DNA of 64,000 nucleotides. Origin: Paludibacteraceae bacterium (GTDB lineage: Bacteria > Bacteroidota > Bacteroidia > Bacteroidales > Paludibacteraceae). The notes below the pieces were generated by a model. That model saw nothing but the letters and a program-made list of their open reading frames with translations. It was not told the origin of the DNA and did not search any database. The stretch lies in NCBI GenBank assembly GCA_017551025.1, contig JAFZNG010000034.1, positions 1-64,000 on the forward strand, written 5' to 3'. Numbering within the stretch: position 1 is the first letter of the stretch; the number at the start of each line of letters is the position of its first letter. This document shows, piece by piece, positions 14,096 to 29,960 of this stretch. A program made the position numbers and the translations under genes.

Positions 14096-16321
14096 TTATA
14101 GCGCATCGATGAGGATGAAGGCATCGGCGTACTGCGGGGCGCGGAATTTATCGTGGCGCAGCAGTTGGTCGCGCGAACGCATAAAGGCCGTATGGATATC
14201 CATACCTGCCTGCAGGTTGCGCAGCAGGCCGCGCATCAAGATTGAGGACGACTCGTCTTCTACGCTCCACAGACTGACGATCATCGTCTGTACGCCCGCT
14301 AGCTTCAATGCCCGCTGGATACCGTATACGCCGTCGGCTGTCACGTAGCCCAAACCCGTCTGGCAGGCTGAGAGCACCATGAGTTGGCAAGGCAGGCTGA
14401 GGCGCGACAACTCCTTAGCCGACAGGATGCCGTCGGGACGAGAGGCCGGGTGGGTGTCGTCGGTTAGCGCCTGCTGCGCACCCGCCAGGGCGATGCCACT
14501 CTGGGACAATGCTTGGTCGGAATAGAGCGGACGCAGGTCGGTGCCGTCGTCCATGGTGCCGACAAAGAAGCCGTGGGTAGAGACGAGGATAAAGGGGAAA
14601 GCCGGAGCCTGTTCCGCAAAGGCGGCATCCGTAGCTCGGGTGCGGGTGAGCACCAAGTCCTCGGTATTGTGACCGCGATAGGTAGTGAAAGAGTCGATCT
14701 CGGTGCGCGCATTCGGTAGCACCTTCAGGCCGTTGGCATAGGGCCGTAGGAAATGGTAGGCCGAGGCGTCGTTGTCCGAACCGTCGGCATCGGAGGGCGT
14801 CGTATAATCGATATCGCCGACGATGAGCATACGGCTCGTATCGAGCGCACGGCGGTCGCGGGTGAGCAGACGCGTGGAGGTGAGCCGGCGGCACGTACGG
14901 GTGGTGTCGGGCAGCAGGTACTCCACGGCCAGCTGCTGGAGCAGTCCGTCGGCGGCAAAGTAGATCGTACGCGCCTGACCGATAGCCTGCATGAGCCGGG
15001 AGGTCCATATGCGCGAGGGTAGGACCGAATCCGTATAGAGGTACTCCTTGTCGTAATGGTGGTCGGAGGTGATGGCCCGCTCCAGGCTGACACGGCCGCT
15101 GAGACGCATACGGCGCAGGCTGTCGAGATCGGCAAGACGGATAAATTCGGGTGCTCGGCATCCGGGCGTGAGGACGAGAGCACCCAAGAGATTGCGTTCG
15201 TCGCGTCCGTGGTACTGCACAAACTCCACGGCGCAGGCGTCCTGCGATAAGTGGTCGCGCACCTCGGTCCAGGTGACGGGACGGGCATTCGGTTGACGGT
15301 ATTCGAGCAGATACCCCTTGCTGAGCAGGGCCAGGTCGTAGAGCATCTCAGGGGCAGCCTGCTCAAGCCGGTAGCAGTCGAACAGGAAATCATGCATGCT
15401 GAGCCAGTACTGCTCGCGTTGGTGCTCGGTCATGCGGCCGAGATTGGTCTGCAGTTCACGCCGGAGCGTATCGAGGTAGCAGGCGTAGTAATGCTTGGCG
15501 GAATCGATAGGTTGCGACGGATCCAGGTCATGACGGAGCAGCAGGATCTTGGCCTTGGTGCGCAGCACCTCCGGCGTACGCTCGCATCCCTCGGGCATCA
15601 TGCCGAGTGTCTCCGTGGCCGAGTCGAAGTCCTGCAAGCGTGCTTGCACGATGGCGAGCGAGAGAAAGGCATCGATGATGCGGCGGTTGCGCTGGCTATC
15701 TTCCGCTGTAGCGGGACAGGGAAGGTAAGTCTGGTTGGCATAGTGGTCGAAGACGGTATAGGCCTCCTCGAGCGCTTCTTTATAGCGCTTGTGCTTATAG
15801 CTTAGACTGAGCAGTTCGCGATGGATAGTGGCAGGCAGTTCGGGGGCATCCATAGTGTCGCAGACGGCCTTCATCGAATCGATAAGCAGAAGACACTCCT
15901 CATAGGATGCACGGGCTTTGGCGTAAGCCTCCTTCTGCTGACCGGAGAGGCTGTAGTAGTACGAGCCGCGCAGCTTACAGATCGCTTCTCGCCACGCGAG
16001 GCGGGTGTTTGTGTCGGCCTCGGCGGCATAGGTCTGGTAGGCCTGGTCGGAGAGTTGGAGCGCCGATTCTACCTGGGTGAGGATCTGGAGCATATAGTAG
16101 CACTCACCCTCGGCGGTCAGGCTGCGGATGAGCAGGTCACCCTGTTTGGCCTGGCGGGCCATGTTGGCTGCCTGGTGGAAGCGTTCGGCGGCTTGGATAT
16201 ACTGCTCCTGTTGGTTGAGCACACGGGCTTGGTCGAAGACGGCTTGGATATCCTCGGCTGAGTAACACGAGCAGGCTACGAGTAGCGGCAAGGCGAGCAA
16301 GAGGAGGCAGAGACGTTTCAT
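14096..16321 (-). CDS. TPR-CHAT protein, caspase-like protease, predicted lipoprotein
   Basis: A 741-residue protein with a lipoprotein-type signal (MKRLCLLLLALPLLVACSC, lipidated Cys at about 17). TPR-like helical pairs fill about residues 22-330, and a C-terminal CHAT domain lies at about 430-741. The caspase-type dyad is intact: His583 in LVSTHGFF and Cys653 in VLSACQTG, with the following ADGVYGIQRALKLAGVQTMIVSLW block typical of CHAT. CHAT proteases act in separase-, caspase- and Craspase-like systems. It is the last gene of the nine-gene unit; its ATG overlaps the stop of the pseudokinase gene (ATGA). The substrate is unknown; partner proteins of the operon are obvious candidates. Confidence 0.88.
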   Translation of the reverse strand: MKRLCLLLLALPLLVACSCYSAEDIQAVFDQARVLNQQEQYIQAAERFHQAANMARQAKQGDLLIRSLTAEGECYYMLQILTQVESALQLSDQAYQTYAAEADTNTRLAWREAICKLRGSYYYSLSGQQKEAYAKARASYEECLLLIDSMKAVCDTMDAPELPATIHRELLSLSYKHKRYKEALEEAYTVFDHYANQTYLPCPATAEDSQRNRRIIDAFLSLAIVQARLQDFDSATETLGMMPEGCERTPEVLRTKAKILLLRHDLDPSQPIDSAKHYYACYLDTLRRELQTNLGRMTEHQREQYWLSMHDFLFDCYRLEQAAPEMLYDLALLSKGYLLEYRQPNARPVTWTEVRDHLSQDACAVEFVQYHGRDERNLLGALVLTPGCRAPEFIRLADLDSLRRMRLSGRVSLERAITSDHHYDKEYLYTDSVLPSRIWTSRLMQAIGQARTIYFAADGLLQQLAVEYLLPDTTRTCRRLTSTRLLTRDRRALDTSRMLIVGDIDYTTPSDADGSDNDASAYHFLRPYANGLKVLPNARTEIDSFTTYRGHNTEDLVLTRTRATDAAFAEQAPAFPFILVSTHGFFVGTMDDGTDLRPLYSDQALSQSGIALAGAQQALTDDTHPASRPDGILSAKELSRLSLPCQLMVLSACQTGLGYVTADGVYGIQRALKLAGVQTMIVSLWSVEDESSSILMRGLLRNLQAGMDIHTAFMRSRDQLLRHDKFRAPQYADAFILIDAL

Positions 16322-17517
16322 CGGGTCTGGCGGTAGTTGTGGTTGATAATGACAAAGGAGGCATTCTCCTTGCTCGAGCGGTTGGTCAGCTTCATAGTCA
16401 GCGTCTCGCCCCGTTTAGGGGCGTGGGCGGCATCGATGATAAAGTAGGTCACGCCGTCGCGATCTTTACCCGTAGGCGGAATCACCGTGCCGTTGGCGCG
16501 AACGAGGGTGACGCTATAGGCCTGGTCGGCCTTATGGGGGACGATGAGGAAGACCTGTTTGCCGTATCGCTCGCGCATGGTATAGGTGGCGGTGCGTCCG
16601 GCACGAACACCTTTCTCGTAGATGGAGTAACTGAAGCGGCTGTCGGAGCCGTCGAGCAGGCGTTGTCCGCTGTTCTGGACGGTGCGGTTGCTGCGGTCCT
16701 TGAGGGCGGTGATGATACGGTTGACACCAAAGGTGCGTATGCCGTTACCGGCCAGCGGGTAGTCGTTGGCGCGATCGCGCAGTTCGTCCATGAGGGTGAA
16801 CTGGGCAAGCCGTTTCTCGAACTCGCTACGGGCACGCGTCCAGTGCTGCTGGTCGGCCTGGCGCAGCAGGAGCGTAGCGTCCAGCAGTTTACGGGTGAGC
16901 TCTTCTTGCTTGGGGTCCAGACGAGGTTGTGCAAAGCTGAGCGTAGCTACCAGCAGCAACGGCAGCAGCAGGAGCAGGGGTTTGACCGATGCCAGCATGC
17001 TCTCCGGCCACTGGCGGTCGATAGCCTGCGTCGTGGTCTCGGCAGCCGTAGCCAGCGACGGACGTAAGGGACGCTTGGTCGGCGGCAGTTGTAGGGCTAC
17101 CTGACGGGCAGCTTGGAGTACTTGGTCGGCTGCGGGACGCTTGGTGGGGTCGTGGTGCAGACATTGCTGCAGCAGTAGGTTGAGCCGTTCGGCCTCCGCT
17201 TGCGGCAGGGTAGGGATAGGTGTGTGAGCCGTCTGGGCTTGCTCGCCACGGCCGTTGAAGAGAGGCGTGCCGAGCAGCAGTTCCATCGTGGAGGCCGCCA
17301 GTTGCCATACGTCGCCGGCCGCCGTACCTAAGGAAGAGACGGGAGCAGAGAGGATGAAACGATCGTCCTCGATAAGCACATGGCGCAGGTCGACCGCACC
17401 GTGGTATTGCTGCTGCGCATGCAGCACGGCCAGTTGCTCGGCTACTTGTTGGAGGTACTGTACGGCGAGAGGCAACGAACAGTAACCGCGAAGAGAAAGC
17501 GCATAGTTCGTATCCAT
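16318..17517 (-). CDS. Pseudokinase-TM protein
   Basis: A 399-residue protein whose first 140 residues resemble only the C-lobe of a Ser/Thr kinase: a catalytic-loop-like HGAVDLRHVLI (H39, with Ala41 where HGD has Asp), GDVWQLA (subdomain IX) and DPTKRPAADQVLQ (subdomain XI). The N-lobe, VAIK lysine and DFG are absent, so catalysis is not expected. A membrane helix (about 183-198, KPLLLLLPLLLVATLSF) precedes a roughly 200-residue C-terminal domain, predicted periplasmic, of no family I recognise. It lies 1 base behind the FHA-protease gene and overlaps the CHAT gene by 4 bases, indicating tight coupling. Confidence 0.75.
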   Translation of the reverse strand: MDTNYALSLRGYCSLPLAVQYLQQVAEQLAVLHAQQQYHGAVDLRHVLIEDDRFILSAPVSSLGTAAGDVWQLAASTMELLLGTPLFNGRGEQAQTAHTPIPTLPQAEAERLNLLLQQCLHHDPTKRPAADQVLQAARQVALQLPPTKRPLRPSLATAAETTTQAIDRQWPESMLASVKPLLLLLPLLLVATLSFAQPRLDPKQEELTRKLLDATLLLRQADQQHWTRARSEFEKRLAQFTLMDELRDRANDYPLAGNGIRTFGVNRIITALKDRSNRTVQNSGQRLLDGSDSRFSYSIYEKGVRAGRTATYTMRERYGKQVFLIVPHKADQAYSVTLVRANGTVIPPTGKDRDGVTYFIIDAAHAPKRGETLTMKLTNRSSKENASFVIINHNYRQTR

Positions 17518-17518
17518 A

Positions 17519-18793
17519 TTACTGCGGCTGTTGGTTGAGTTCGTGAATGAGTTGACGAATACGAGCGGCGGGCACCAAGGCGGTGCGTTTGCCTGCCGAA
17601 CGGGATACCAGACCTACGACGCGCTTGCCGGGAACATCGGAGAATACCGGTCCGCCGGAGAATCCCGGATCGCAGTCGAGGTCTGCGGTAAACCAGCAAT
17701 CGGGCGTAGGGGGCAGTTGGAGTATCTTGCCCTCGAGCGAGGTGAACTCGGCCTGCTGACTGCTCTCGTTCTGGGGGAAGCCGAAGCAGAAGATCGACTG
17801 ATGCTTCCCGAGCGGCTGATCCGCCTCGGCCAATCGGATAGTACCTTTGCCTTCAGGCCAGCGCATGACGGCTATGTCGCCCAGTTCGCAATCCCGCTTC
17901 TCGTAGCGGCTGATGACGCTGCGCCAGAGATAGGCACTCTGCATGTCGCCCAGGTCATAGACGCCGTCGTGGCTGCGGTCGATGAGGAAATCATCGGAGG
18001 TGAAGACCCAGGACTTCTCGTCCTTGTAGCTGGTGATCCGGACGGGTACGACGAGATGAAGGGTCGTGTCTTCCTCGGCGAGGATGGCCTGGCGCACGAT
18101 ATCCGACCCGATATCCGAGAGCGAGGGACACAGCTGATCTTCCATGCCGAGCCAGAATTCCAGGCAGTGGCGGGCGGTGACGAAATAGCCGTCTTCGGTA
18201 AGGAAACCCGTACCTATCAGCGGTCGGTCTACGCCGTAGCGGCCCAGCGTATCGCCGGTGGCGGTAGCGAGGACGAAGAGCGAGTCGGCCTGGATACGGT
18301 AGATTGACTGTATCTCCTGACGGAACTTAGCCTCGGGTGTGCTGCGGTCGATGAGCAGGTACGCTACGACGCCTGCCACCACCAGCGCCAGGAGCGTCAT
18401 CGCGATACGCATCGGCCAGGAGGGACGATTAGGTACGTACTGCGTGGTAGGCAGCGCACCTTGCTCCAGGGTGAAGCGCACGACGGTGCGATCGAACTGG
18501 AGGATATCGCCATCGTGGAGGTTCCGGACGAGCGGTAGGGGCTGACCGTTTACTGAGACGGCAGCCTCCGGGTCCTGGCGTAGCAATTGCCATCCTTCGC
18601 CTTGCGGCGAGAGAACGATAACGGCGTAGCAGGTATCGGCATAGTCGGTATGGGGCACCAATCTTAGACCGCATTCGGGTGTCTGACCTATATAGAGTGC
18701 CTCCCCGGTACCGTAACAGATATCGCCTCGGCGGTGGCGATCGTCGGTGCTGCGAAATCGCAGGGCGTAGTAGGTATCTATCGTGGGCTTCAT
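17519..18793 (-). CDS. FHA-TM-trypsin-like serine protease
   Basis: A 424-residue fusion. Residues about 30-108 form an FHA-like fold (YIGQTPECGLRL, VNGQPLP, LHDGDILQF), but the phosphothreonine-binding pattern is weak: Gln replaces the usual Arg after Gly, and no Ser-X-X-His follows. A membrane helix lies at 129-148. The C-terminal domain is a trypsin/HtrA-like protease with the triad His209 (VTARHC), probable Asp306 (LGDIAVM) and Ser379 (DPGFSGGP). The predicted topology is cytoplasmic FHA and periplasmic protease. It overlaps the RyR gene by 4 bases. In this operon it may cleave or be activated with the CHAT proteins. Confidence 0.82.
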   Translation of the reverse strand: MKPTIDTYYALRFRSTDDRHRRGDICYGTGEALYIGQTPECGLRLVPHTDYADTCYAVIVLSPQGEGWQLLRQDPEAAVSVNGQPLPLVRNLHDGDILQFDRTVVRFTLEQGALPTTQYVPNRPSWPMRIAMTLLALVVAGVVAYLLIDRSTPEAKFRQEIQSIYRIQADSLFVLATATGDTLGRYGVDRPLIGTGFLTEDGYFVTARHCLEFWLGMEDQLCPSLSDIGSDIVRQAILAEEDTTLHLVVPVRITSYKDEKSWVFTSDDFLIDRSHDGVYDLGDMQSAYLWRSVISRYEKRDCELGDIAVMRWPEGKGTIRLAEADQPLGKHQSIFCFGFPQNESSQQAEFTSLEGKILQLPPTPDCWFTADLDCDPGFSGGPVFSDVPGKRVVGLVSRSAGKRTALVPAARIRQLIHELNQQPQ

Positions 18794-20226
18794 GCGTCGG
18801 GGTTGTTTAGGTGGTAGTACGTATAGGCGATGAGCGGCAGGGTGCGGGTGAGGGCGAGGTCGTAGCGGGCTACGTTCTTGCCGGTCTCATCGACACCCAG
18901 CTCGTGGTAGCTGCGCAGGTCATCGTGGATGAGGCGACTCTTGAGTAGGCCGCGCTGATGTATGTCGCGCAGAATAGCGAGGTGCTCCTCATCGGTGGTG
19001 GGACGATAGCCCAGGATGAGTTCTTCTACGCTCCAGCGGTTGTGCTCGGCTTCAGAGAGCAGATCGGCCTCTTTCTCGCTGATAGCGAACAGGGTGCGCC
19101 AGGTCTCGGGCGCATGGCCGAGGGAGTGCATCTTCGAGGTGAGCGTGAAGGCGTGGTAGATATTCGACCAGCGCTTGGGCATCGTCAGTCGCGGGTTGAG
19201 CCATAGTTGGTCGAGTTGCTGCTGCGAGGGCACTTCGGTAGCGATAGCCATGGCGTTCTGGCCTTGCCGTTGCTCTTCGTCGCTGGTCTCGCGCAACTGG
19301 TGGTAGGCGTAGTTGACGCACTGCGCCATATGGATGAACCGACGCATGTCGGGTAGGGGTGCGTGGTCCATACCGAAGGGGATGAGCTGCGCGTACTGTC
19401 CCGACTGCTTGACCAGGCGAAGCGAACTGTCGTCATCGAGGCGCACCCAACACGGGATATCCTGCAGGTGCTGCGGCAGGCTGAGCGCTTCGTTGAGGTT
19501 GCGCGACGCGTCCGTATAGCAGAAGGCGACGGTCAGTTGTTGGCTAGGGTCTTGTGCCCATTTCTGCAACTTGTAGCTGAGGCTGTCGTCATCGCTGTGT
19601 GCGTTGACGAATTCAAACTCGATATCTACGAAGTCCTGACGCAGGCCTTGGTATTTAGGCGTTTGCGTGAGGCACTCCACCTCTTCGCCGCCCGTGAGGA
19701 CGGTGCGCCGGTAGCTGTGTGTGAGCAGGTTCTGGTAGTGCTGGCGGAAGGCTCGGAAGTCCTCCTGCGAGTCGGCCACCAGGGTGATGCGCGTGCGCAA
19801 GGTATGATCCAGACTGTAGTTGGGATAATGGGCGATGAGCGCGGTATGGATAGCCAGGCTCTCCGTCTGCGGGCTCATGCCAAAGACGACGAGATGGACG
19901 ATCTGTCGGCTCTCGGGCGTGATAGGCTGTCGGTCGAGCCGGGTAGGACTGTCGGGACTGATGCCCAGCAGCTGCATCGACCAGAGGTCTTCACGGGTGT
20001 AGGCATACAGTTCGATCCGTTCGCTCATTTCTGCCGATAGCGGTGTACGACGCAGTATGTCCGCCAGTCGCTGACTGCGCAGGATGAGGTGCAAGCGTTG
20101 GTGCTGTCCGTTAGTCGTTTGCTGCATGATCGCTTCGATCTGTGCCTCCATCTCGCGTATCACCGCATTGTCGGCCTCCGCCGCCGTCCCGTCAGGTCGG
20201 GATTGTATGTAGATGTCTTGAGTCAT
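18790..20226 (-). CDS. Rossmann-like and RyR-domain protein
   Basis: A 478-residue soluble protein. Around residues 107-190, VHLVVFGMSPQTESLAIHTAL resembles a TrkA-type Rossmann NAD-binding fold with a changed glycine pattern. The C-terminal 110 residues carry AEHNRWSVEELILGYRP, the hallmark of bacterial RyR (ryanodine-receptor repeat-like) domains, followed by HDDLRSYHELG. Such domains are thought to bind nucleotide-like ligands in bacterial signalling or conflict systems. No signal peptide or membrane helix is visible, so it would be the cytoplasmic member of the unit. Start ATG at 20226 lies 12 bases behind the TIR-FGE gene. Confidence 0.72.
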   Translation of the reverse strand: MTQDIYIQSRPDGTAAEADNAVIREMEAQIEAIMQQTTNGQHQRLHLILRSQRLADILRRTPLSAEMSERIELYAYTREDLWSMQLLGISPDSPTRLDRQPITPESRQIVHLVVFGMSPQTESLAIHTALIAHYPNYSLDHTLRTRITLVADSQEDFRAFRQHYQNLLTHSYRRTVLTGGEEVECLTQTPKYQGLRQDFVDIEFEFVNAHSDDDSLSYKLQKWAQDPSQQLTVAFCYTDASRNLNEALSLPQHLQDIPCWVRLDDDSSLRLVKQSGQYAQLIPFGMDHAPLPDMRRFIHMAQCVNYAYHQLRETSDEEQRQGQNAMAIATEVPSQQQLDQLWLNPRLTMPKRWSNIYHAFTLTSKMHSLGHAPETWRTLFAISEKEADLLSEAEHNRWSVEELILGYRPTTDEEHLAILRDIHQRGLLKSRLIHDDLRSYHELGVDETGKNVARYDLALTRTLPLIAYTYYHLNNPDA

Positions 20227-20238
20227 AAGCGTGTGTGA

Positions 20239-21483
20239 TTAGTTTTCGTCGATAGCGAGACGCAGTCCTATATCCTGGCGCGGTAGGCCGCCTTCTTCGC
20301 GTGTACCGCGGAAGGTGACGGTGAGGGTGCGCAATTCGCTGTTATACCAACTGCCGCCACGCATGATACGTCGTTTCGATTCATCGTCGCCATGCGGGTT
20401 GATGATGAGCCCTTTCGGGTAAAGGCAGTAGCCGTCGGAACACCATTCAAATACGTTGCCGGTCATGTCGTACAGTCCCAGGTAGTTGGGTTTGCCGGCT
20501 GTGCGGACCGGAAGAACGTATCGTTTCTCTTCCGGATGGTAGAGCGTCACTTCGGAAATATCGTTGCTACCTGCATAGAGTGTGTCTTGCCCGTGTTCTC
20601 CACCGCGTGCGGCGTATTCCCACTGCGCCTCGGTAGGCATGCGGAAGCTCTCACCGGTCAGCAGATTGAGTTGCTCGATAAATTGTCGGCAGTCCTCCCA
20701 CGAGACGTTATCTACCGGCAGATTCTGCATGTTGCGGTTCTTGCTGGGGTTGTTACCCATGACGGTTTCCCATAGCTCCTGGGTGATTTCGGTCTCGGAG
20801 AGATAGTAGTCGTAGAGCTGCACCTGGTGCGCCGGTTGCTGGTCATCGTCGCGCGTATTACTGCCCATCATAAATGTGCCGCCTTTGATTTGAATCATCT
20901 TGAGATGGACGGTATCGATGGTGAAGACAATATCGCCGTTAGGTAGCGTCGTCTTTTCTACGCTAGGTTTGATAAAGCGGGGGATGCATACGATAGCGGC
21001 TGCTATGACCAGCAGCGCGAGTAGCGTCCATAGGACGGGTTTCCATACCGAGCGTTTTGTCTTCCGCTCGGCCGGCGCCATGTTGAGCACTCCTTGCAGT
21101 GTTTGCACCAATTTGTCCAGTCCGGGCTTCATCTTGGTGATGCCACTCAGGTCTACGTAGTCCAGACAGCCTATGTCGAATAGTATCGAGTCGTTGTATG
21201 GCGTGTTATCCAACCTGACCGGCACGATAGGTTTACCGAGATGAACGGCGGTATTGATCTCCTTGATCGTCCATGGCGAGGTGTTCGCATCCGCCGAGGA
21301 GAAGAACAGGAATACGTCGCATTGCTTGATAGCCTTAACGATGACGGTCTTGAATTGCTCGCCACTCTTGATACTCTCGTCGGCCATCCAACACGGAATA
21401 CCTGCTTCCTCGAGGTGTTGCTTCACCTTGCGCACCTTCTGCTGATCGCGGGTACTATAACTGATAAATACTTGTTTGGGCAT
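20239..21483 (-). CDS. TIR-TM-FGE (formylglycine-generating-enzyme-like) fusion
   Basis: A 414-residue protein. Residues 1-130 are a TIR domain (QVFISYSTRDQQKV, CWMADESIKSGE) with the NADase-type glutamate in place (W71-T-I-K-E75). A membrane helix covers about 150-168. The remainder is an FGE/sulfatase-modifying-like domain: GGTFMMGSN, EITQELWETVMGNNPS, PVDNVSWEDCRQF, RMPTEAQWEYAARGG, GNVFEWCSDGY, MRGGSWYN and GLRLAI. The catalytic cysteine pair of true FGEs is not seen at the C-terminal end, so ligand binding or sensing is more likely than formylglycine formation. It is preceded by a 57-base gap, the widest in the nine-gene unit. Confidence 0.85.
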   Translation of the reverse strand: MPKQVFISYSTRDQQKVRKVKQHLEEAGIPCWMADESIKSGEQFKTVIVKAIKQCDVFLFFSSADANTSPWTIKEINTAVHLGKPIVPVRLDNTPYNDSILFDIGCLDYVDLSGITKMKPGLDKLVQTLQGVLNMAPAERKTKRSVWKPVLWTLLALLVIAAAIVCIPRFIKPSVEKTTLPNGDIVFTIDTVHLKMIQIKGGTFMMGSNTRDDDQQPAHQVQLYDYYLSETEITQELWETVMGNNPSKNRNMQNLPVDNVSWEDCRQFIEQLNLLTGESFRMPTEAQWEYAARGGEHGQDTLYAGSNDISEVTLYHPEEKRYVLPVRTAGKPNYLGLYDMTGNVFEWCSDGYCLYPKGLIINPHGDDESKRRIMRGGSWYNSELRTLTVTFRGTREEGGLPRQDIGLRLAIDEN

Positions 21484-21540
21484 AGGATTAAGCTTTTTTC
21501 TTGCTCATTTATGTAGTAATATATAATTAGGCATGGTAAA

Positions 21541-24500
21541 TTAGTCTAGTAATATGAATGCTGCCCAGTAAATGGGGTCTTTGTATTTGGCTCTGACAGT
21601 GTTTTGCGCGTTGTGGAATGCCACGCGTTTGGTTTGCTTGTTTGTTATCCAATTACGATAAAACGTGGTCATGAGTAGTTGGGTTGCGTTATCATTTACA
21701 GGCCAAAGCGACATGATGATAGTCTGTGCGCCCGCCATTTTAAAGGCACGTTGCAAACCAAATACGCCATCACCCGTAATCTCTCCGCTTCCTGTTTCGC
21801 AGGCAGATAATACGACTAAGTCGGCATCACGTAAATCGAGCAGAGATATTTCTTTGGCTGTCAGGATCCCGTCTTGTACTCCTTCCGGAAGATCTGCGCT
21901 ATGACCCTGCAGCGCTATATTAGCTCCGGCGAATAATAGACCGCTTCTATATAGCGGGTCAATCATTGTCGATGAGGCAGAAGTTTTGTTCGCGTTGGTT
22001 GTGCGCTGGGCAAAGTAGTCTGTTTGATGTGCTGTGGAGTCCGTCCTGAAGAATCCGTGCGTAGCGATGTGCAAAATGTTTTGGCGTTGACCATGAAGCG
22101 ATTTGAATGACTCTTCGTTGGCGGCTGAAGCGGCGTATAATTTAACATTGATATGAGCTCGTTGAAGTAGGTCGTGTATCTGCTTTGTTTCTGTTTCTGT
22201 ACCCGGTAAGGCATCAACATGGCTACGGTAAATACCTTCTAGTGTGCGGCTACCGTTTATGGGCGGGTATTTAATACTCTCACTCGTAAGTGTTTGTGTG
22301 TCTGTGTCGTAATCTATGCCGCCGTAGAGTATCGCGGTGGAATAAGAAGGCGTGGTATGGTGTTGCGCTATTTCACGCGTCGAAGATAAACGCGCAAAAT
22401 GGAATACATCGCTCATCGTATGTTGCGCATCATAGGGCAAATATTCGATGGCTAGTTGGTAGAGTAGACCGGTCGGTGCGAAACATATAGTCTCTCCGGC
22501 ATGAATATGAGGTAGTATGTGTCGCCACACCAGGGATGATAAATCTTCTCCATTTTCATAGTAACTATAGGTCTCTCCCGGATCGCGACTGATGAGGCGT
22601 TTCAATTCTTTTTCTTCGAATAGCGGTATCATTAGCGGGTAGGAACTCGTGTCGCGTAAGAGTATGGCACAATACATGGTGCTGTCATCGTTGAGCGGTG
22701 CTGTCATAAATTCGATAGCCACTTGTCCCGGTACGAGGTGATTACGTACGCTATCCCATGAGATTTGCCAAATAGACATATTCTCACGGTATGCAGCACT
22801 GGATTTGGTGATATCTTTTTCGAGTTGTTCGGCTTGTATTTCCTTTGTGCTAATCTCGGCAATTGAAGCATTGTTCTCTCGAAGATAGACGATTGTGCGT
22901 TTAAGAGCGGCCAAATCCTGCCATTTCCGTATAAGCGCTGTGTCGCCGCTTCGCAGTACGGATTGCAGAACGAGTTCGCTTGAGTTAAGTAAGAATCCCT
23001 TCCGGAAGAGCTCGTTGTTGTATGACATGGTTGTGAGTGTGTCAGCCAACATGGCAGCACGATAAGCATATCGCGGGATAAATTCTTCCAGTGCGATTTT
23101 ATATTCAGACCAATAGGCTTCTCGTTGTTGCTCCGTCATGAAGTTGATGGTAGATGTGATGTTTCGCTTGATGATCGGGGCATAGATTTTTACGTATTGT
23201 GTTGCATTTAGCGGATTTTGGTGATGCACGTTTATTTCGCCGAGCAACATGCAATAGTATAGGAATTGATGGGTGGAATTTCCTCCCATTACATTGGCCA
23301 TCATCAGACGAGAATTGACGATAGCATCCATTATATCATGATAGAAATCGTAATCGCGCTTATGGTAATAGTAAGTTCGGAGAATCTCTTCGAGGTCTTT
23401 TGGGTCGTTGAAGTCTCCGGTTCGGTTAAAACGCGCAACCATGTTTTCTAGATCGTTGCTTTGACCGATAGTTGCGTATATGTGCGTGGCTGTTCCGATA
23501 TGACGATAAGCGACCTCTTCGCTGCCGGTAAGCATGTAGTAAATAGCAAGCGCGTTTTGGCAATGAGCGTATTGTTCACTCTGCTCGCCCCAGGTCCGTA
23601 ATGCGATACTGTCCGCTCTAAGAAGGCATTGCTCCGCATCACCGGTATGTCCTTGTTTGAGAGCTGCCATACCTTGGGCAATGATATACTTGATGTACGT
23701 GGTGTCATTCTCACCCAGTTCTTCATATATGATATTCGCCGCCTGTTTGATGTGTTTCTCTGCGTAGGTATACATGCCTGCCTCGAAACAAGCATCAGAC
23801 AGTTGATAGAGTTCTTCGGCGTATTCTATACTTTCTTGCCCATAGTACCCCATGACGGCGAGGGCTTTTTTACGCATGTATTCGCGTTGCTTAGTGCCAT
23901 TGTTGATGGTTCGGTAGAATGCAATAATCTCTTCTAACGCATATATGTGATTAAGAGATTCTTCTCCGCTAATACGGATGCATACGTCGATGGCTTGTAG
24001 ATAGTAGTCTTCTGCTTTAGTATAATTATGACGACGGGTATAATATGCTGCTATATTTAGTAACGCCGCTGCATAACTCGGATCTCGCCCTTGGTCTATT
24101 TTTTGTCTGAGCCGAAGTGCTTCCTGAAAGTAGTTCTCAGTCTTGATCGTGTCACTCATTTGTTCGTATAGCGTCGCCAGACTGAGAAGTGTGCTCGTGT
24201 AAGAACGATGTTTTTTTCCGTATAGGCTCTTCTTGGCTTTTAGCGCCAGCAGATAATATTTTTCTGCCTTTGGATAGTCTTCTAATTTGGTGTATAGCAG
24301 GCCCATGTCGTGCAAGATGGATGCGTAGTCATCCTTTGCTTTGTGCTTGAGAGGCTGTATTAAGTCGAGCGACTCTATATAGTATGGCGTAGCTTTTGTG
24401 GTGCTATCCATGTCGAGGTAGAAGGCTCCTAGTGCTGCCAACGCATTGATATATACTAGATGCTGCTTGCCATACATATTACGTATGATGCGCAGTCTTT

Positions 24501-25110
24501 TTAGGTAATACTTCTCGGCTTCTTCATACTCATGAATATTCTCGTAAAGGATACCTAAGTTTTTAAGCGATCTAACATAATCTTGACTATTCTCGCCCAA
24601 TAGTTCATATTGGAGTTTTAGCGCTTTTAGATAACAAATTTCCGCCTTGTCGTATTTTTCAATTTCGTCATAGATAATACCCATGTTTCCCAGCAACTTT
24701 GCGTTGGTGACGGTGTGCTCTTGTTTCGTTACACGAATAAAACTCTGGGCTATTTCACAATAATTTATAGCAATCTCGTATTCATCGTCATGGTATTGCT
24801 CCATAGCCATGCTGTTGAGGTCGTTAGCCAAATAGAGCGCCAAGCTATCGAAAGAAGTATGGTCAAAAGGAATGGAATCCTGGAGTGAATAATCAAACGC
24901 GATATTATAAAATACAGTTATGGCGCTACTTATGTCTATCTTTTTTTGCGAGATGCTCCAGTCTTGAATAAGTGGTAGTTCGTTAACAACGCATGCGGTA
25001 TTTTCTTCGTTGAGACAGTCGATCATACGTGAAAGGTGCGTATCATTGTTTTTTGCTGACAATGATACGACCCATACGAGGACTATCAGGAGAATTCGCA
25101 TGCGTTCCAT
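21541..25110 (-). CDS. Large TPR-CHAT protein, caspase-like protease
   Basis: An 1189-residue protein with a signal peptide (MRILLIVLVWVVSLSA) and at least ten consecutive TPRs at about 115-560 of the kinesin-light-chain type, with repeated motifs such as YDKAEICYLKALKLQYELLG and YPKAEKYYLLALKAKK. After a helical linker comes a CHAT domain with intact His1018 (LHIATHGFF) and Cys1104 (VLSACETG) and the GDGVFGLQRAFKMAGAQTII block. Its base composition is visibly lower in G+C than its neighbours, suggesting separate acquisition. It lies 14 bases behind the TPR-retropepsin gene. The TPR array probably binds the activating partner or substrate in the periplasm. Confidence 0.88.
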   Translation of the reverse strand: MERMRILLIVLVWVVSLSAKNNDTHLSRMIDCLNEENTACVVNELPLIQDWSISQKKIDISSAITVFYNIAFDYSLQDSIPFDHTSFDSLALYLANDLNSMAMEQYHDDEYEIAINYCEIAQSFIRVTKQEHTVTNAKLLGNMGIIYDEIEKYDKAEICYLKALKLQYELLGENSQDYVRSLKNLGILYENIHEYEEAEKYYLKRLRIIRNMYGKQHLVYINALAALGAFYLDMDSTTKATPYYIESLDLIQPLKHKAKDDYASILHDMGLLYTKLEDYPKAEKYYLLALKAKKSLYGKKHRSYTSTLLSLATLYEQMSDTIKTENYFQEALRLRQKIDQGRDPSYAAALLNIAAYYTRRHNYTKAEDYYLQAIDVCIRISGEESLNHIYALEEIIAFYRTINNGTKQREYMRKKALAVMGYYGQESIEYAEELYQLSDACFEAGMYTYAEKHIKQAANIIYEELGENDTTYIKYIIAQGMAALKQGHTGDAEQCLLRADSIALRTWGEQSEQYAHCQNALAIYYMLTGSEEVAYRHIGTATHIYATIGQSNDLENMVARFNRTGDFNDPKDLEEILRTYYYHKRDYDFYHDIMDAIVNSRLMMANVMGGNSTHQFLYYCMLLGEINVHHQNPLNATQYVKIYAPIIKRNITSTINFMTEQQREAYWSEYKIALEEFIPRYAYRAAMLADTLTTMSYNNELFRKGFLLNSSELVLQSVLRSGDTALIRKWQDLAALKRTIVYLRENNASIAEISTKEIQAEQLEKDITKSSAAYRENMSIWQISWDSVRNHLVPGQVAIEFMTAPLNDDSTMYCAILLRDTSSYPLMIPLFEEKELKRLISRDPGETYSYYENGEDLSSLVWRHILPHIHAGETICFAPTGLLYQLAIEYLPYDAQHTMSDVFHFARLSSTREIAQHHTTPSYSTAILYGGIDYDTDTQTLTSESIKYPPINGSRTLEGIYRSHVDALPGTETETKQIHDLLQRAHINVKLYAASAANEESFKSLHGQRQNILHIATHGFFRTDSTAHQTDYFAQRTTNANKTSASSTMIDPLYRSGLLFAGANIALQGHSADLPEGVQDGILTAKEISLLDLRDADLVVLSACETGSGEITGDGVFGLQRAFKMAGAQTIIMSLWPVNDNATQLLMTTFYRNWITNKQTKRVAFHNAQNTVRAKYKDPIYWAAFILLD

Positions 25111-25124
25111 AGACTGGCCAGAAC

Positions 25125-27194
25125 TTATTTTCTAAACCGAATGATAGAGGCGTTGTTGTCCACCTCGAGGGTGCCGAAGCGGCGGAAGACCGTCTGGCCG
25201 AGTAGCAGCGGCGCATGCTGGCTCTTGACCACCGAGGCCTTGACGTCACGCAGCACGACTTCGCCGACGCGTACCTCGCGCAGGTTGATGATCGTGCCCT
25301 CGTGGATCTCGCCCGTAGCGGTCACGTAGTTCTGCTTGCCCAGGAAATCGGCTTCACTCAGGTAACCCTCCTTGAGCATGAAGTTAGCCTCCACGCTGGA
25401 GATCGTCACGTCCGACGCACCCGTATCAAAGACAAAATAGAGCGGCAGGCCGTTGATCGTGCACTTGACCTTGCAGACCCCTCCCTCGCGGGTAAAGGGC
25501 AGTTCGGTGACGCCCTGCTCGTTCTGTTCGCCGCGCGTCATGTCCTCGGCACGTTTCAGATCGGCCAGGCGTACCGCTTCCCAACGGTCGAGCAGTGCCA
25601 GCCAGTCCGGATCGTCGCGGAGCCAGTCGAAGCGGAAGAACGAACGCAACTGGATGAGGTTGCGGTAACCGAGCCGGAAGTGCAGTTCCGCCAGTTGCAG
25701 CAAACGTTCTTTATCGCGCAGCAGCGCATAGCAGCCCATCAGATCGAGCATCGCATCGTAGCGATTAACGAGCGACTGGAGCGAGAGGATAGAGTCGGTA
25801 TAGTGGTCGAGCTGCTCACGCTGACCAAGGATAGCCTCGGCGAAGAGGAAGGTGACGCGGTCCTGGTTGGCACGGTTGCGATAGCGCAGCGCCTCCTCGC
25901 AGTCTTGACGAGCAGCCTCTTCGTTCCCCATACGGCGGTGAACCTCGGCGCGGTTGAACAGGCAGGTCGGCAGGTCTTTCTCCTCGGCTACCATCACGGC
26001 GCTATCCATATATACGAGCGCACCTTCCAGGTCGCTCAACATGATCTTGCAGCGACCGATCATACGGTACGTATCGCCGTCCTCGGGATCGGCGGCAAGG
26101 TCCTGGAGCGAGTGGTGGATTGCCAGCTCGGCCTGATCGCAGTCGCGATAGAGCGAGGCAAGCGCATTATGGAAGAAGGCTTTATGCTCCTCCTTGAGCG
26201 AGTCTGTGGCCATCCACTCCTGCATGTACTGTAGCGCACGGTCGTAGTCGCCGAGTTGGCGGTAGGCGAGCGAATAGGCGCTATATAGGTCGCTATGCTC
26301 CGTGCCGTAGCGTTCGGCCTGCTGCATATGATAGAGCATCCGTCCGTAGTCCTTCGAAGCGAAGAAATAGTTGGCGGCATGGATATGCGCTTCGGCATCG
26401 GTGACGGTCTTCTGCAATTCGTTGAGCACGGCGGCGTCCATCAGTTCGTGGCAGAGGTAGAAGAGCGTATCGGTCACGCCCGTACCGGCCTCATCCTCCA
26501 GGGCCAAAGCATGGGCTTCCTCGCGGCATGCCTCGTGGAGTCGTCCCTCGCGGATAGCGATGAGCGCCAGGAGGTGGTGCGCCTTGTAGTTCTCGTCGTC
26601 GGTGAGCAGGATGGCCATGCGGCAGGCTGTCTTCGCCTCCTCTATCCGACCGAGATGATAGTAGCCCTCCGCCAGTTCGGCATAGCCGTATGCGGGCGTG
26701 CCCTTGTCGTCTACGAGCTGCTTATAGATACGAATACCCTCTTCGTACTCGCCTAGCGCGTAGCATACATCGGCATAACTGATCCGATATTCGTCGCGCT
26801 CCTTGTCCAGCTGCATGGCACGGCTGTAAGCCTGCTTGGAGGCTTGGAAATCCTCCACCTTATAATATACATCCCCCAGGATACTGTTCATGAAGGCCTG
26901 CCAGGTCACGTCTTTCTTCGGAATATATTTCAGTGCTTTCTCGGCCGCCTCGAGCGACTCGGCATAGCGGGCATACGCGCGCTTGGAGTATATCTCGGCC
27001 AGCATCGCCCAGCAGTAGCCGTCCTTGGGGTTGGCTTCCACGCCGAGCAGGCTGATACGTATCGACTCGTCATAGTCTTCCTGTTGGTAGGCTTCTTCGG
27101 CCCGCTGGAAATAGTAGGACTGGTTGTTCTTAGCTTGCAGACTTGTCACGATCAGCGACAAGAGGAGCATACAAATGATTCTATGTAGTTTCAT
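25125..27194 (-). CDS. TPR protein with C-terminal retropepsin-like aspartic protease
   Basis: A 689-residue protein: signal peptide (MKLHRIICMLLLSLIVTSLQA), many TPR units over residues about 25-480, and a C-terminal single-chain retropepsin-like domain. The active site is Asp590 in VFDTGASDVTIS, followed by the downstream hydrophobic-Gly element LLGQTVFRRF and a closing strand. Such domains work as dimers, so the protein probably homodimerises or pairs with its paralogue at 28887-29816. It lies between two other TPR genes, 13 bases behind the upstream one. The substrate is unknown. Confidence 0.85.
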   Translation of the reverse strand: MKLHRIICMLLLSLIVTSLQAKNNQSYYFQRAEEAYQQEDYDESIRISLLGVEANPKDGYCWAMLAEIYSKRAYARYAESLEAAEKALKYIPKKDVTWQAFMNSILGDVYYKVEDFQASKQAYSRAMQLDKERDEYRISYADVCYALGEYEEGIRIYKQLVDDKGTPAYGYAELAEGYYHLGRIEEAKTACRMAILLTDDENYKAHHLLALIAIREGRLHEACREEAHALALEDEAGTGVTDTLFYLCHELMDAAVLNELQKTVTDAEAHIHAANYFFASKDYGRMLYHMQQAERYGTEHSDLYSAYSLAYRQLGDYDRALQYMQEWMATDSLKEEHKAFFHNALASLYRDCDQAELAIHHSLQDLAADPEDGDTYRMIGRCKIMLSDLEGALVYMDSAVMVAEEKDLPTCLFNRAEVHRRMGNEEAARQDCEEALRYRNRANQDRVTFLFAEAILGQREQLDHYTDSILSLQSLVNRYDAMLDLMGCYALLRDKERLLQLAELHFRLGYRNLIQLRSFFRFDWLRDDPDWLALLDRWEAVRLADLKRAEDMTRGEQNEQGVTELPFTREGGVCKVKCTINGLPLYFVFDTGASDVTISSVEANFMLKEGYLSEADFLGKQNYVTATGEIHEGTIINLREVRVGEVVLRDVKASVVKSQHAPLLLGQTVFRRFGTLEVDNNASIIRFRK

Positions 27195-27207
27195 GACGGT
27201 AGCGGTT

Positions 27208-28866
27208 TTATAGGGTTTCTAACAAGCGTTTCAGTTCGGCAATCTCCTGTCGTTGCAGGGCCTTGTATTCCTCGATGAGGGCCGTGAACTCGGGCAGTTG
27301 GCGAATCGAGTCCAGGTCGTCGTCCCAGGCGATATGATGGAAGATACGGAAGCCGTACTCGAAGGCTTTGCGCAGCTCCAGGAGGGCTTCGTCCGACATG
27401 TTCATTCTAGCATACATACAGGCGGCATTGTAGTGGTCGCCGGCACTGTTCTCACGGCGCACCATCTTATCGCTCAGTTGGCGGGCACGAACCGTGTCGC
27501 CCAGGGCGAGCAGCATGTCCATGGCCGTATCGTTGCGCATGGTCTGCAGACCTTGCTCCAGCACGCGACGGGCGGCCGCCTCGTCACCCATCCGTCGATA
27601 GACTTCGGCGAGGGCGGTCCAGGTATCACGGTCGTGTTCCGCTACGAGCGAACGGCGGTATTCCTCCACGGCCCGCGGATAGTTGTGCTGGTCGCGATAG
27701 ATACGTCCGCGAAGCGAATAGATGAAGTGTACCTTCTGCAGTTCCGGATCCAGACGCAGCGCCTCATCCAGGGCACGCAGCGCTTCATCGTAGCGTCCGA
27801 GGTCGTAGTACAGGTCAGCCAGATGACCCCATGCCTCGGCGGAGGTGGAGTCGATGGTCATCGACTTGCGATACAGCTCTTCCGCCAACTCGGCATCACC
27901 TATGTAGTTCTGTACGTACGATCCGGCCATGCGGTAGCTGTCGGCATCGTCGCCCGTCTTGGCGCCACGCAGCAGGTGGTAGATGGCGGGGATATACTGG
28001 TTGTGACGCGCATAGACATCACTCATCGCGCAGGGCCACAGCATCTCGTTCGGTTCGCGACTGAAGGCCGTCTCCATCGAGTCGAGCACGGGTTGTATGT
28101 CGCTGCTGTCGGCAATCAAGACCATGAGTTTCAGTCCGCGACGGGCGTGGAGCTTCTCGGTCGCCATGGCTTCGGTGAGGGCTTCGGGATAAAGCTTCAG
28201 TCCTATGAGTGCCTGGCCGCGCAAGTAATGCAGGGTAGCCTGCTCGTTCTTGGACGCATCGCCAATCATGACCCCCAGGTCGGCAGCACGCAGGGCTTCG
28301 TCGTAGCGGTGCAGACTGTTGAGCGAGGAGATATAGACGATATAACTCATAGCGTTCGAACCGAGTCCCTTGGTGCGGTGGAGCATGCGGTCACCCATCT
28401 CGTAGAGCGCCTGATAATCTTCCTGCTCGTCCAGCACGTTGGCCAGAGGACCGTAGAAATCCGACTCGCTCGGGTTGTAACTGATGGCGCGGTTCCAGCG
28501 TTCTATGGCCTGCACCGTGTCGCCCGCCTGAAGCACGAGTTCGGCCTGCAGGCTCTCCATGTTGGCCTTCAGGTAGGTCGCACTCTTGGGCAGCAGTTTC
28601 AGTGCCTGCTTGGCAAAGCGGAACGTGGCGCCGTCGTAACCGCTCATCTGGTCGCAGATAATAGCCAGATAGGCGTAGGCGATGCCGTTGGTGGGGTTCT
28701 CCTGTACTTCCTGCACCAGGTACTTGATGCCGGTTTGGTAGTCTTGCGACAACATGACGGCCTCCAGGGCACGCTTCATGTTGTAACTTTCGGTCGTGTT
28801 GCCGGCCAGTACTACTCCCGAGACGAGGAGCAGCACAGCAATCATGGCATGTCGGAAAAGTTTCAT
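27208..28866 (-). CDS. Periplasmic TPR protein
   Basis: I start at the ATG at 28866 (MKLFRHAMIAVLLLVSGVVLA), because it gives a clean signal peptide and the longer in-frame extension runs back into the preceding gene. The resulting 552-residue protein consists almost wholly of TPR-like helix pairs, clearest at AEAWGHLADLYYDLGRYDEA and DTWTALAEVYRRMGDEAAA. No catalytic domain is visible. It sits 20 bases behind the degenerate retropepsin gene and 13 before the active one, and the N-terminal halves of all three look alike (signal, YxxxRAEEA-like first TPR), so they are probably paralogues. A scaffold or adaptor role is inferred from context. Confidence 0.8.
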   Translation of the reverse strand: MKLFRHAMIAVLLLVSGVVLAGNTTESYNMKRALEAVMLSQDYQTGIKYLVQEVQENPTNGIAYAYLAIICDQMSGYDGATFRFAKQALKLLPKSATYLKANMESLQAELVLQAGDTVQAIERWNRAISYNPSESDFYGPLANVLDEQEDYQALYEMGDRMLHRTKGLGSNAMSYIVYISSLNSLHRYDEALRAADLGVMIGDASKNEQATLHYLRGQALIGLKLYPEALTEAMATEKLHARRGLKLMVLIADSSDIQPVLDSMETAFSREPNEMLWPCAMSDVYARHNQYIPAIYHLLRGAKTGDDADSYRMAGSYVQNYIGDAELAEELYRKSMTIDSTSAEAWGHLADLYYDLGRYDEALRALDEALRLDPELQKVHFIYSLRGRIYRDQHNYPRAVEEYRRSLVAEHDRDTWTALAEVYRRMGDEAAARRVLEQGLQTMRNDTAMDMLLALGDTVRARQLSDKMVRRENSAGDHYNAACMYARMNMSDEALLELRKAFEYGFRIFHHIAWDDDLDSIRQLPEFTALIEEYKALQRQEIAELKRLLETL

Positions 28867-28886
28867 ATGTTTGTAAATACGTTTGT

Positions 28887-29816
28887 TTATCTTCGGATCT
28901 CGAGCACTTTCTCCCGCTCGTTGATGACCACGCGGCCGAGTCGCCTCAGATCCGCGAGGCATAGGATCAGCGGACTCTCCTGGGTGCGCCGGTAGCGCAA
29001 CCGTACGTCACGCATCACCAGCCCCTCACCCATCTTCATCTCGCGCACCACGATCACGCGGTTGTCGATGATATCCTGGCGCGAGACGTAATCGTTCTTC
29101 AGGATAAAACTGGTCTCTACACCGGATATACTGCTCTCGGTGGCGGTAGTATCTATTTCGGCTTTGATGCGCAGGCCGTTGAGGTGGCAGGTGAGTTCTA
29201 TTTTGTCGCCCGTGCGGGTAAAAGGAATACGTGCTACGACCGTGTCTTCCGTTTGCAGTTGCAACGGCCGGAGACTGTCGATGAGGCTGATGAGAGTGGT
29301 GTCGCCGCGTCGGTAAGCTTCCTGGTAATAGGTGAGTGCGGCGGCGGTGTCGCCCTGATGGATGCGCAGTTGCCCCAGCGCACGTAGGGCGTTGGTGTTG
29401 GCTTTCGAGGCCTTGGCTGTTTTGTCGAGTCGCGTCGCTACACCGCCGCGGGTGAGACTGTCCACGTGCATGATAAGCGGTTCGTCATCGGGTAGGGTGC
29501 CCGTGTTGACGGCCGAGGCACAGAAGAGCGCCGCATGGGCGGTGTTGCCGCGACTGAGGGCGATGCGGGCACGATGGAGATACATACATCCGGCTTCGCC
29601 CAGACGCTCACCGTAGTCCAGGGTCTCTTCGGCCTGCACGGTGTCACCCAACTGGAGCAGCATACCCACGTATTCGCAGCGCAGCGTCATGTCGCCCGGG
29701 GTCTTGCGGAGGCGTTGCTCCAGCTTGCGGGCAGCCTTCTGATCGGCTTGGTTGGCGCGCAAGAAACCACTGCCGCAGAGCAGTATCAAACACAGTATCC
29801 AATAGGTCTTTTTCAT
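28887..29816 (-). CDS. TPR protein with degenerate retropepsin-like domain
   Basis: The first gene of the nine-gene unit. The start at 29816 (MKKTYWILCLILLCGSGFLRA) is chosen because the promoter at 29836-29868 lies upstream of it and a longer frame would begin inside or before that promoter. The 309-residue product has a signal peptide, a short TPR region (about 25-170) and a C-terminal domain that aligns by eye with the retropepsin domain of the 25125-27194 product. The DTGA motif is changed to DTTA (AEIDTTATESSIS), and the second Gly element reads LILCLADLRRLG. Loss of the Gly suggests an inactive partner or regulatory subunit. Confidence 0.78.
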   Translation of the reverse strand: MKKTYWILCLILLCGSGFLRANQADQKAARKLEQRLRKTPGDMTLRCEYVGMLLQLGDTVQAEETLDYGERLGEAGCMYLHRARIALSRGNTAHAALFCASAVNTGTLPDDEPLIMHVDSLTRGGVATRLDKTAKASKANTNALRALGQLRIHQGDTAAALTYYQEAYRRGDTTLISLIDSLRPLQLQTEDTVVARIPFTRTGDKIELTCHLNGLRIKAEIDTTATESSISGVETSFILKNDYVSRQDIIDNRVIVVREMKMGEGLVMRDVRLRYRRTQESPLILCLADLRRLGRVVINEREKVLEIRR

Positions 29817-29835: not shown

Positions 29836-29868
29836 ACAAAAGTACAAAAAAAAACGCACATATGCAAA
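29836..29868 (-). promoter_or_regulatory. Promoter of the nine-gene CHAT/TIR unit
   Basis: Minus strand: TTG (CAA at 29865-29867), 20-base spacer, TACTTTTG (29837-29844). The leader to the ATG at 29816 is about 14 bases. The spacer is formed by the T run of the hairpin at 29846-29887, so it is superimposed on a terminator. Confidence 0.75.
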
Positions 29869-29887
29869 TTTTTGTGCGTTTTTTTTT
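29846..29887 (-). terminator. Terminator after the AraC gene, overlapping the next promoter
   Basis: Stem of A-run plus ACGCACA (29846-29860) with TGTGCGT plus T-run (29873-29887), 12-base loop. It can terminate in either direction; on the minus strand it follows the serS-AraC transcript. Confidence 0.75.
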
Positions 29888-29890
29888 ATT

Positions 29891-29960
29891 CTACCCCCTA
29901 CACTCTACACTCTACACCCTACACTCTACACTCTACACCCTACACCATACACCCTACACT
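29891..29960 (-). repeat. Heptamer array, CTACACC/CTACACT type, 10 copies
   Basis: Ten units in perfect 7-base register (CTACCCC, then CTACACT or CTACACC, with one ATACACC). The 3' end of the AraC-type gene runs into it: the stop (29926-29928) and about the last ten residues are array-encoded. Confidence 0.9.

Follow-up and report, generated by a model that had tools for sequence, protein, structure and literature searches.

Proteolysis set off by a TIR signal is the logic of type IV Thoeris, where a TIR protein makes N7-cyclic ADP-ribose (N7-cADPR) and a caspase-like protease is activated (PMC12847820, available in part). It is the nearest described logic to the one proposed here for four genes of a Paludibacteraceae bacterium (assembly GCA_017551025.1, contig JAFZNG010000034.1). 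The DNA analysed, positions 1 to 64,000 of that contig (64,000 nucleotides, hereafter the window), contains a nine-gene operon, A to I, which is a composite with F-G-H-I as its conserved unit. These four genes may constitute a signal-gated protease module across the inner membrane, in which an ADP-ribose-family signal passes via protein F to a trypsin and a CHAT protease, a reading to which we give a probability of roughly 0.45. In contrast to type IV Thoeris as described in that part of the source, the receptor here would be of RCK/RyR type, the trypsin and CHAT proteases are predicted to be periplasmic, and the TIR gene is sometimes not adjacent. Moreover, whereas the caspase-like protease of type IV Thoeris is itself the receptor, F has no Pfam protease domain, and the trypsin is either separate from it or fused to it.

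The available part of a preprint on phage RyDEP reports a RyR domain in which H75, W78, H100 and D117 contact 3'cADPR (PMC13232231). F has the same four ligand-contact residue types; RyDEP is presented there as a phage counter-defence sponge or glycosidase, whereas F is cellular and tied to membrane outputs. Long relatives of F resemble CASTOR/POLLUX/DMI1 and GsuK in having two transmembrane helices (TMs) and RCK1 homology, CASTOR being a Ca2+-gated channel according to the part of PMC6697748 available. Unlike these proteins, F has a RyR domain, and its short form is poreless and paired with a protease; TVGYG was absent from the 24 TM1-TM2 segments examined, taken from 45 long F, and GYG occurred in one. 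The VMAP/iSTAND ternary and FGS/CLec conflict systems share trypsin, caspase-like, TIR and FGE/CLec parts with the operon, but its nine genes have no MoxR or vWA Pfam match, and RyR is not mentioned in the passages on those systems that were available. Craspase/TPR-CHAT has the same TPR-CHAT architecture as protein I, which differs in its hydrophobic, secretion-type N-terminus; Pfam and PADLOC found no CRISPR proteins among the nine genes other than TPR cross-matches. Among the literature matches listed, which do not establish absence from print, there was no system with this gene set or with a RyR effector, and none in which a receptor derived from a gating ring controls a predicted periplasmic protease.

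A conserved four-gene core in a composite operon

The sequence-only reading had described nine tightly spaced genes on one strand, and this is borne out by nine intact open reading frames (ORFs), all starting with ATG, which run from 29816 to 14096 on the minus strand with junctions of 20, 13, 14, 57, 12, -4, 1 and -4 bases from A to I. Much of its domain assignment also stands. By Pfam, D (1.1e-52) and I (6.8e-37) have a CHAT domain, C has a retropepsin (1.6e-14), E has both TIR (2.6e-25) and FGE (1.8e-39) domains and G has Trypsin_2 (1.7e-10). The motifs are legible in the sequences: D and I show THG/SAC, C shows DTGA, G shows ARHC/LGDIA/GFSGGP and the TIR domain of E shows WTIKE. FHA and RyR domains, which it had also named, have no Pfam match in the window proteins, the RyR signal emerging at the family level only; its kinase-like part, a C-lobe without HRD, drew two weak kinase matches in H, each below its own Pfam cut-off. 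The aspartyl motif is corrected for gene A, which carries DTTA instead of DTGA. PADLOC returned partial domain matches only (for instance H with mad6, 2e-12; G with RT-Protease, 2.8e-10; E with ThsB, 3e-8), and NCBIfam gave no match for F, G and I up to E 0.01.

Of 200 family genomes, 19 encode a homologue of F, counting the window's own. An alignment-based scan of named genomes yielded 84 F relatives in 94 stretches, of which the best 80 were kept, corresponding to 79 loci (L073 and G021, L104 and G154, L096 and G333, and L145 and G097 are the same loci under two labels); a first, single-sequence scan of genome contigs had confirmed none of 25 candidates, and none of 18 pattern matches on viral contigs encoded a relative. 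By their titles and tree labels the 79 loci belong to Bacteroidota, and many of the titles name a rumen or gut sample.

Besides the window, 31 of these 79 loci have a trypsin either directly after F or fused to it, with several Bacteroidales families labelled; the 31 are 30 from the comparison of F forms given below plus L143, whose F is interrupted. Among the 32 module copies that include the window, H is present in 30, the kinase-like part in 27 and TPR-CHAT in 28. G021 retains I, H, G, F and E in the window order, with A-D swapped for other genes. A single TM joins F to the trypsin in G154 and G097, where a short H domain and then TPR-CHAT come next; such F-TM-trypsin fusions occur in three loci (L096, L104 and L145). 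F opens its operon, with no same-strand gene at most 150 bases upstream, in 13 of the 31 loci, and two more begin at a sequence edge.

STAND-like, TIR and caspase genes adjoin some modules. A caspase-domain gene (PF00656, 1.1e-18; L042:2608-3525) adjoins the CHAT gene of the fused module G097/L145. At L098:5539-9912, two proteins are encoded directly upstream of a short-F module, one a Na+/H+ exchanger with TrkA_C and the other a separate protein with a RyR domain; the scan of upstream genes covered 10 of the 59 under 1300 amino acids (61 in all).

Protein F, its outputs and its partners

The window F has no TM, and a two-TM pore together with an RCK gating ring was found only in its long relatives, which carry two N-terminal TMs and RCK1. 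In an 18-row alignment found without any motif pattern (A2; 13 long and 5 short or fused F, window included), the family matched CASTOR (6o6j) in the RCK1 columns at 1.3e-4 for the whole sequence and 0.0069 for the best stretch; GsuK was matched as well, and Pfam recognised a Slo-like RCK domain in 5 of the 18 members.

A second profile (A6), built from 41 C-termini, namely 40 of 89 F C-termini and one other RyR protein (L098), matched the RyR structure 6uhi at 2.2e-4. PF02026 itself matches 12 of the 41 C-termini and 2 of the 18 F in A2; it has no match in the window's own genome. In the A6 alignment, H434 coincides with the histidine of HPxLVPY and D456 with the aspartate of yDR, while the H..W pair of F is placed solely through the L098 protein, in which EHIRW lines up with the H..W pair of R12. 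H395, W398, H434 and D456 are invariant in all 18 rows of A2; in the 89-row set, from which one F ORF without the motif was dropped (L143, interrupted), H434 is found in 89 of 89 and D456 in 85 of 89. Judged by sequence, the F family has both RyR homology and the ligand-type residues.

The window's own genome also encodes a long two-TM F (L034:8184-11820; G000:C35). The gene that follows it, like its counterpart in L052, begins with an IFIAG.KSF domain and has a later TM; it appears TIR-/DUF4062-like by eye, with no convincing Pfam match.

Of the 40 F that are short or fused, 30 have a trypsin beside them or fused to them, against none of 45 long F (Fisher p 1e-14, relatedness uncorrected; four unclassed ORFs left out). 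Among the ten exceptions, F lies at a contig or locus edge in L074, L132 and L151 and is interrupted in L143; no ORF for a trypsin comes next in L086 and L134 or after the second F of L088, the gene after F in L134 encoding a 926-amino-acid multi-TM protein. The remaining three (L088, L091 and L133) come after a gene for an MscS-type channel (PF00924, 9e-10 to 5e-8). In a quick midpoint-rooted tree, 33 short F cluster with the 3 fused F in a single group (SH-aLRT 100), with L132, at a contig edge, outside. Since trypsin is tied to short or fused F and never to long F, and three exceptions stand beside MscS, F is probably a sensor with exchangeable membrane outputs. The pairs of MscS-type channel gene and F-like protein are located at L088:8001-10315, L091:145-2407 and L133:3776-6040, and the next gene in L091 encodes a TIR-TM protein.

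The catalytic residues of both proteases are conserved: all 32 copies of G keep each residue of the trypsin triad, and all 28 copies of I keep the CHAT dyad. The same does not hold for the parts that the sequence-only reading had taken as sensors. FHA phosphopeptide readers have a conserved Arg after the first Gly; in G this position is Q, E, D, S or F and never R in the 29 rows with a residue there. Protein kinases carry the catalytic motifs HRD and DFG; among the 27 kinase-like proteins HRD occurs in none and D[FL]G in two. With these motifs lost, a phospho-sensing role of the FHA and kinase-like parts was rejected, and F is the probable sensor instead. The two parts look like degenerate adaptors, because they are present where F and trypsin are separate and were not found in the three F-trypsin fusions; the kinase-like gene, absent from those three loci, occurs in L133 (2e-5) and also in L143. 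At the C-terminus of 19 of the 27 kinase-like proteins there is a WPE.M motif, where the others run on into the TM and the H domain.

H could not be assigned to a known domain, having no Pfam family (its best match, at chance level, was 0.018 in one member) and no PDB match below 0.2; I had no PDB match at 0.01. Hydrophobic N-termini are found in 25 of 30 H rows, where in rows joined to the kinase-like part the stretch is the TM left after the analysis cut and not a signal peptide, and in 25 of 28 I rows. Together with the single TMs and the F-TM-trypsin fusion in three loci, this supports the idea of a trans-envelope protease module in the sequence-only reading.

TIR co-occurrence and the weighing of explanations

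TIR_2 was detected in 17 of the 19 genomes with F and in 41 of the 181 without (Fisher p 1e-8, kinship ignored; the F, TIR and AbiEii counts assume an identical 200-genome draw). In 13 of the 19 the TIR lies on the same contig as F, at most 12 kb away, and none of the AbiEii matches listed lies within that distance. The genomes of two fused loci (G154, G097) have a TIR elsewhere.

In the mechanism that we propose, F would be a cytosolic receptor that combines a CASTOR-like RCK gating apparatus with the RyR domain. A TIR protein, E here or one encoded elsewhere, would make an ADP-ribose-family messenger that binds this domain. F would then act on the membrane-anchored trypsin G, directly in the fusions and otherwise through the pseudo-FHA and kinase-like adaptors, and the predicted periplasmic trypsin would activate, or cooperate with, the presumably secreted TPR-CHAT protein I, with H as an accessory. 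The outcome would be the cutting of envelope proteins, probably in conflict defence or self-killing. More tentatively still, these proteins may belong to a general bacterial TIR-to-RyR axis, in which RCK/RyR receptors would read TIR-made ADP-ribose messengers and drive a CASTOR-like two-TM pore, an MscS-type channel or the trypsin/CHAT pair. If true, this would give bacterial RyR-RCK proteins a function, bring ion channels as well as proteolysis outside the inner membrane under TIR signalling, and provide a prokaryotic counterpart of the animal cADPR-RyR link with proteolysis beyond the inner membrane. It would also be relevant to the action of cADPR on the ryanodine receptors of animals, a question still open. 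As nature has fused the proposed soluble receptor to the protease, a single purified protein and a ligand panel would do for first experiments.

Several observations weigh against the signal-gated module. The control family AbiEii is also enriched with F (18 of 19 genomes against 108 of 181, p 0.002), so that part of the TIR link reflects a general defence richness of these genomes; among AbiEii-encoding genomes, TIR nevertheless occurs in 17 of 18 with F and in 24 of 108 without (kinship ignored). Two of these TIR matches are under the Pfam cut-off, that of G170 among the 17 genomes and that of G169 among the 13 nearby placements. TIR is found in the available flanks of just 15 of the 31 module loci and, where flanks are full, in 12 of 18 loci with the module against 11 of 21 without it; the three fused loci have no TIR in their flanks, two of which are short, and the excess of TIR in the +1 position next to long F (8 of 42) was picked post hoc. 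As to the proteins, short F lacks most of RCK1, Pfam does not recognise a RyR domain in the window F by itself, and EHNRW was fixed by the search pattern in the wide-scan loci and the 89-row set. Four of the 32 modules, including one that lies at a contig edge, yielded no CHAT, and the positive-inside rule backs the predicted orientation of G in just 19 of 31.

RCK domains are often gated by cytosolic ligands such as Ca2+, NAD(H), K+ or other nucleotides, and F might be gated by one of these within an ion- or redox-responsive module for periplasmic quality control. The matches of the F family to CASTOR and GsuK and the recurrence of RCK-type outputs favour this explanation; the short F, however, keeps its RyR domain and the conserved ligand-type residues while most of RCK1 is lost, and the co-occurrence with TIR is a further point against it, which leaves it unlikely, though it is the strongest competitor. 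Somewhat less probable again is a role in envelope stress or surface-protein processing, with no immunity, a DegS-like or LapG-like logic, and TIR neighbours that are incidental. The periplasmic TPR and protease content would fit, as would the placement of the operon amid genes that look like housekeeping genes by eye and the similar TIR frequencies in full flanks with and without the module. It accounts poorly for the STAND-like, TIR and caspase neighbours and for the patchy distribution of the H domain, present in 6 of the 358 genomes of the family and 2 of the 393 of the order (the window's own counted in both).

The proposal of the sequence-only reading, a single cascade in which the nine genes work together, is improbable, although the single strand, the short junctions and the single promoter match ahead of A speak for it. 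Of 358 family genomes, 198 contain matches to protein C, many weak or partial, and in 14 of the 16 loci fetched from the listed matches A-B-C occur together without D-I, the remaining two being truncated where their contigs end; at these 16 loci none of the other ORFs matched D to I at 1e-5. In both G154 and G021, A-B-C and F-I are on different contigs. Among the top 14 matches, only L078 and L133 had a gene like D in their flanks, and an E-type TIR-TM-FGE gene stands directly beside the core only in the window, L073 and L133, and further away in L093 and L095. With A-B-C a separate cassette and F beginning its own operon in 13 of the 31 other module loci, the nine-gene functional unit was rejected: the scattering of homologues that would count against a single system is found for A-D and not for F-G-H-I.

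Gene E, the A-B-C cassette and the operon layout

FGE enzymes have a catalytic cysteine pair in their C-terminal region; by direct reading of its sequence, E has no cysteine beyond C353. The C-terminal region of E may serve for binding and not for catalysis, because its closest match, ahead of true FGEs, is the Treponema variable protein 2y3c (2.7e-25).

Table 1. Features of the operon in the window.
Feature	Position	Strand	Description
Promoter match	29837..29868	-	Bacteroidota-type (presumed), TTTG-N20-TACTTTTG, upstream of gene A; pattern scan, 3 matches in window vs 0.32 expected
Gene A	28887..29816	-	TPR and degenerate aspartyl-protease-like domain (DTTA); A-B-C cassette
Gene B	27208..28866	-	TPR protein, hydrophobic N-terminus; A-B-C cassette
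Gene C	25125..27194	-	TPR and retropepsin (DTGA); A-B-C cassette
Gene D	21541..25110	-	TPR-CHAT, hydrophobic N-terminus; outside core, no regular association
Gene E	20239..21483	-	TIR - TM - FGE/C-type-lectin-like
Gene F (core)	18790..20226	-	Soluble, kin to cytosolic part of two-TM RCK proteins, RyR-like C-terminus; proposed sensor
RyR-like region of F	18817..19074	-	H395, W398, H434, D456 (proposed RyDEP/RyR ligand-residue equivalents)
Gene G (core)	17519..18793	-	Pseudo-FHA - TM - trypsin, triad H209/D306/S379
Gene H (core)	16318..17517	-	Kinase-like C-lobe - TM - new domain, predicted periplasmic; two separate genes in most relatives
Conserved domain of H	16321..16938	-	Predicted periplasmic, without Pfam family
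Gene I (core)	14096..16321	-	TPR-CHAT protease, hydrophobic N-terminus, dyad H583/C653

The fetched C loci (L167-L182, for example G154:C49 and G021:C33) present A-B-C as a conserved three-gene cassette of an aspartyl-like/TPR, a TPR and a TPR-retropepsin protein. A search for an empty insertion site found relatives of TF391 in G222 and G154 without common neighbours. The motif ahead of gene A (Table 1) is of the kind that we take to be a Bacteroidota-type promoter. Just upstream of it, at 29880-29960, short tandem repeats of about 10 bases (gtgtag units) can be seen by eye.

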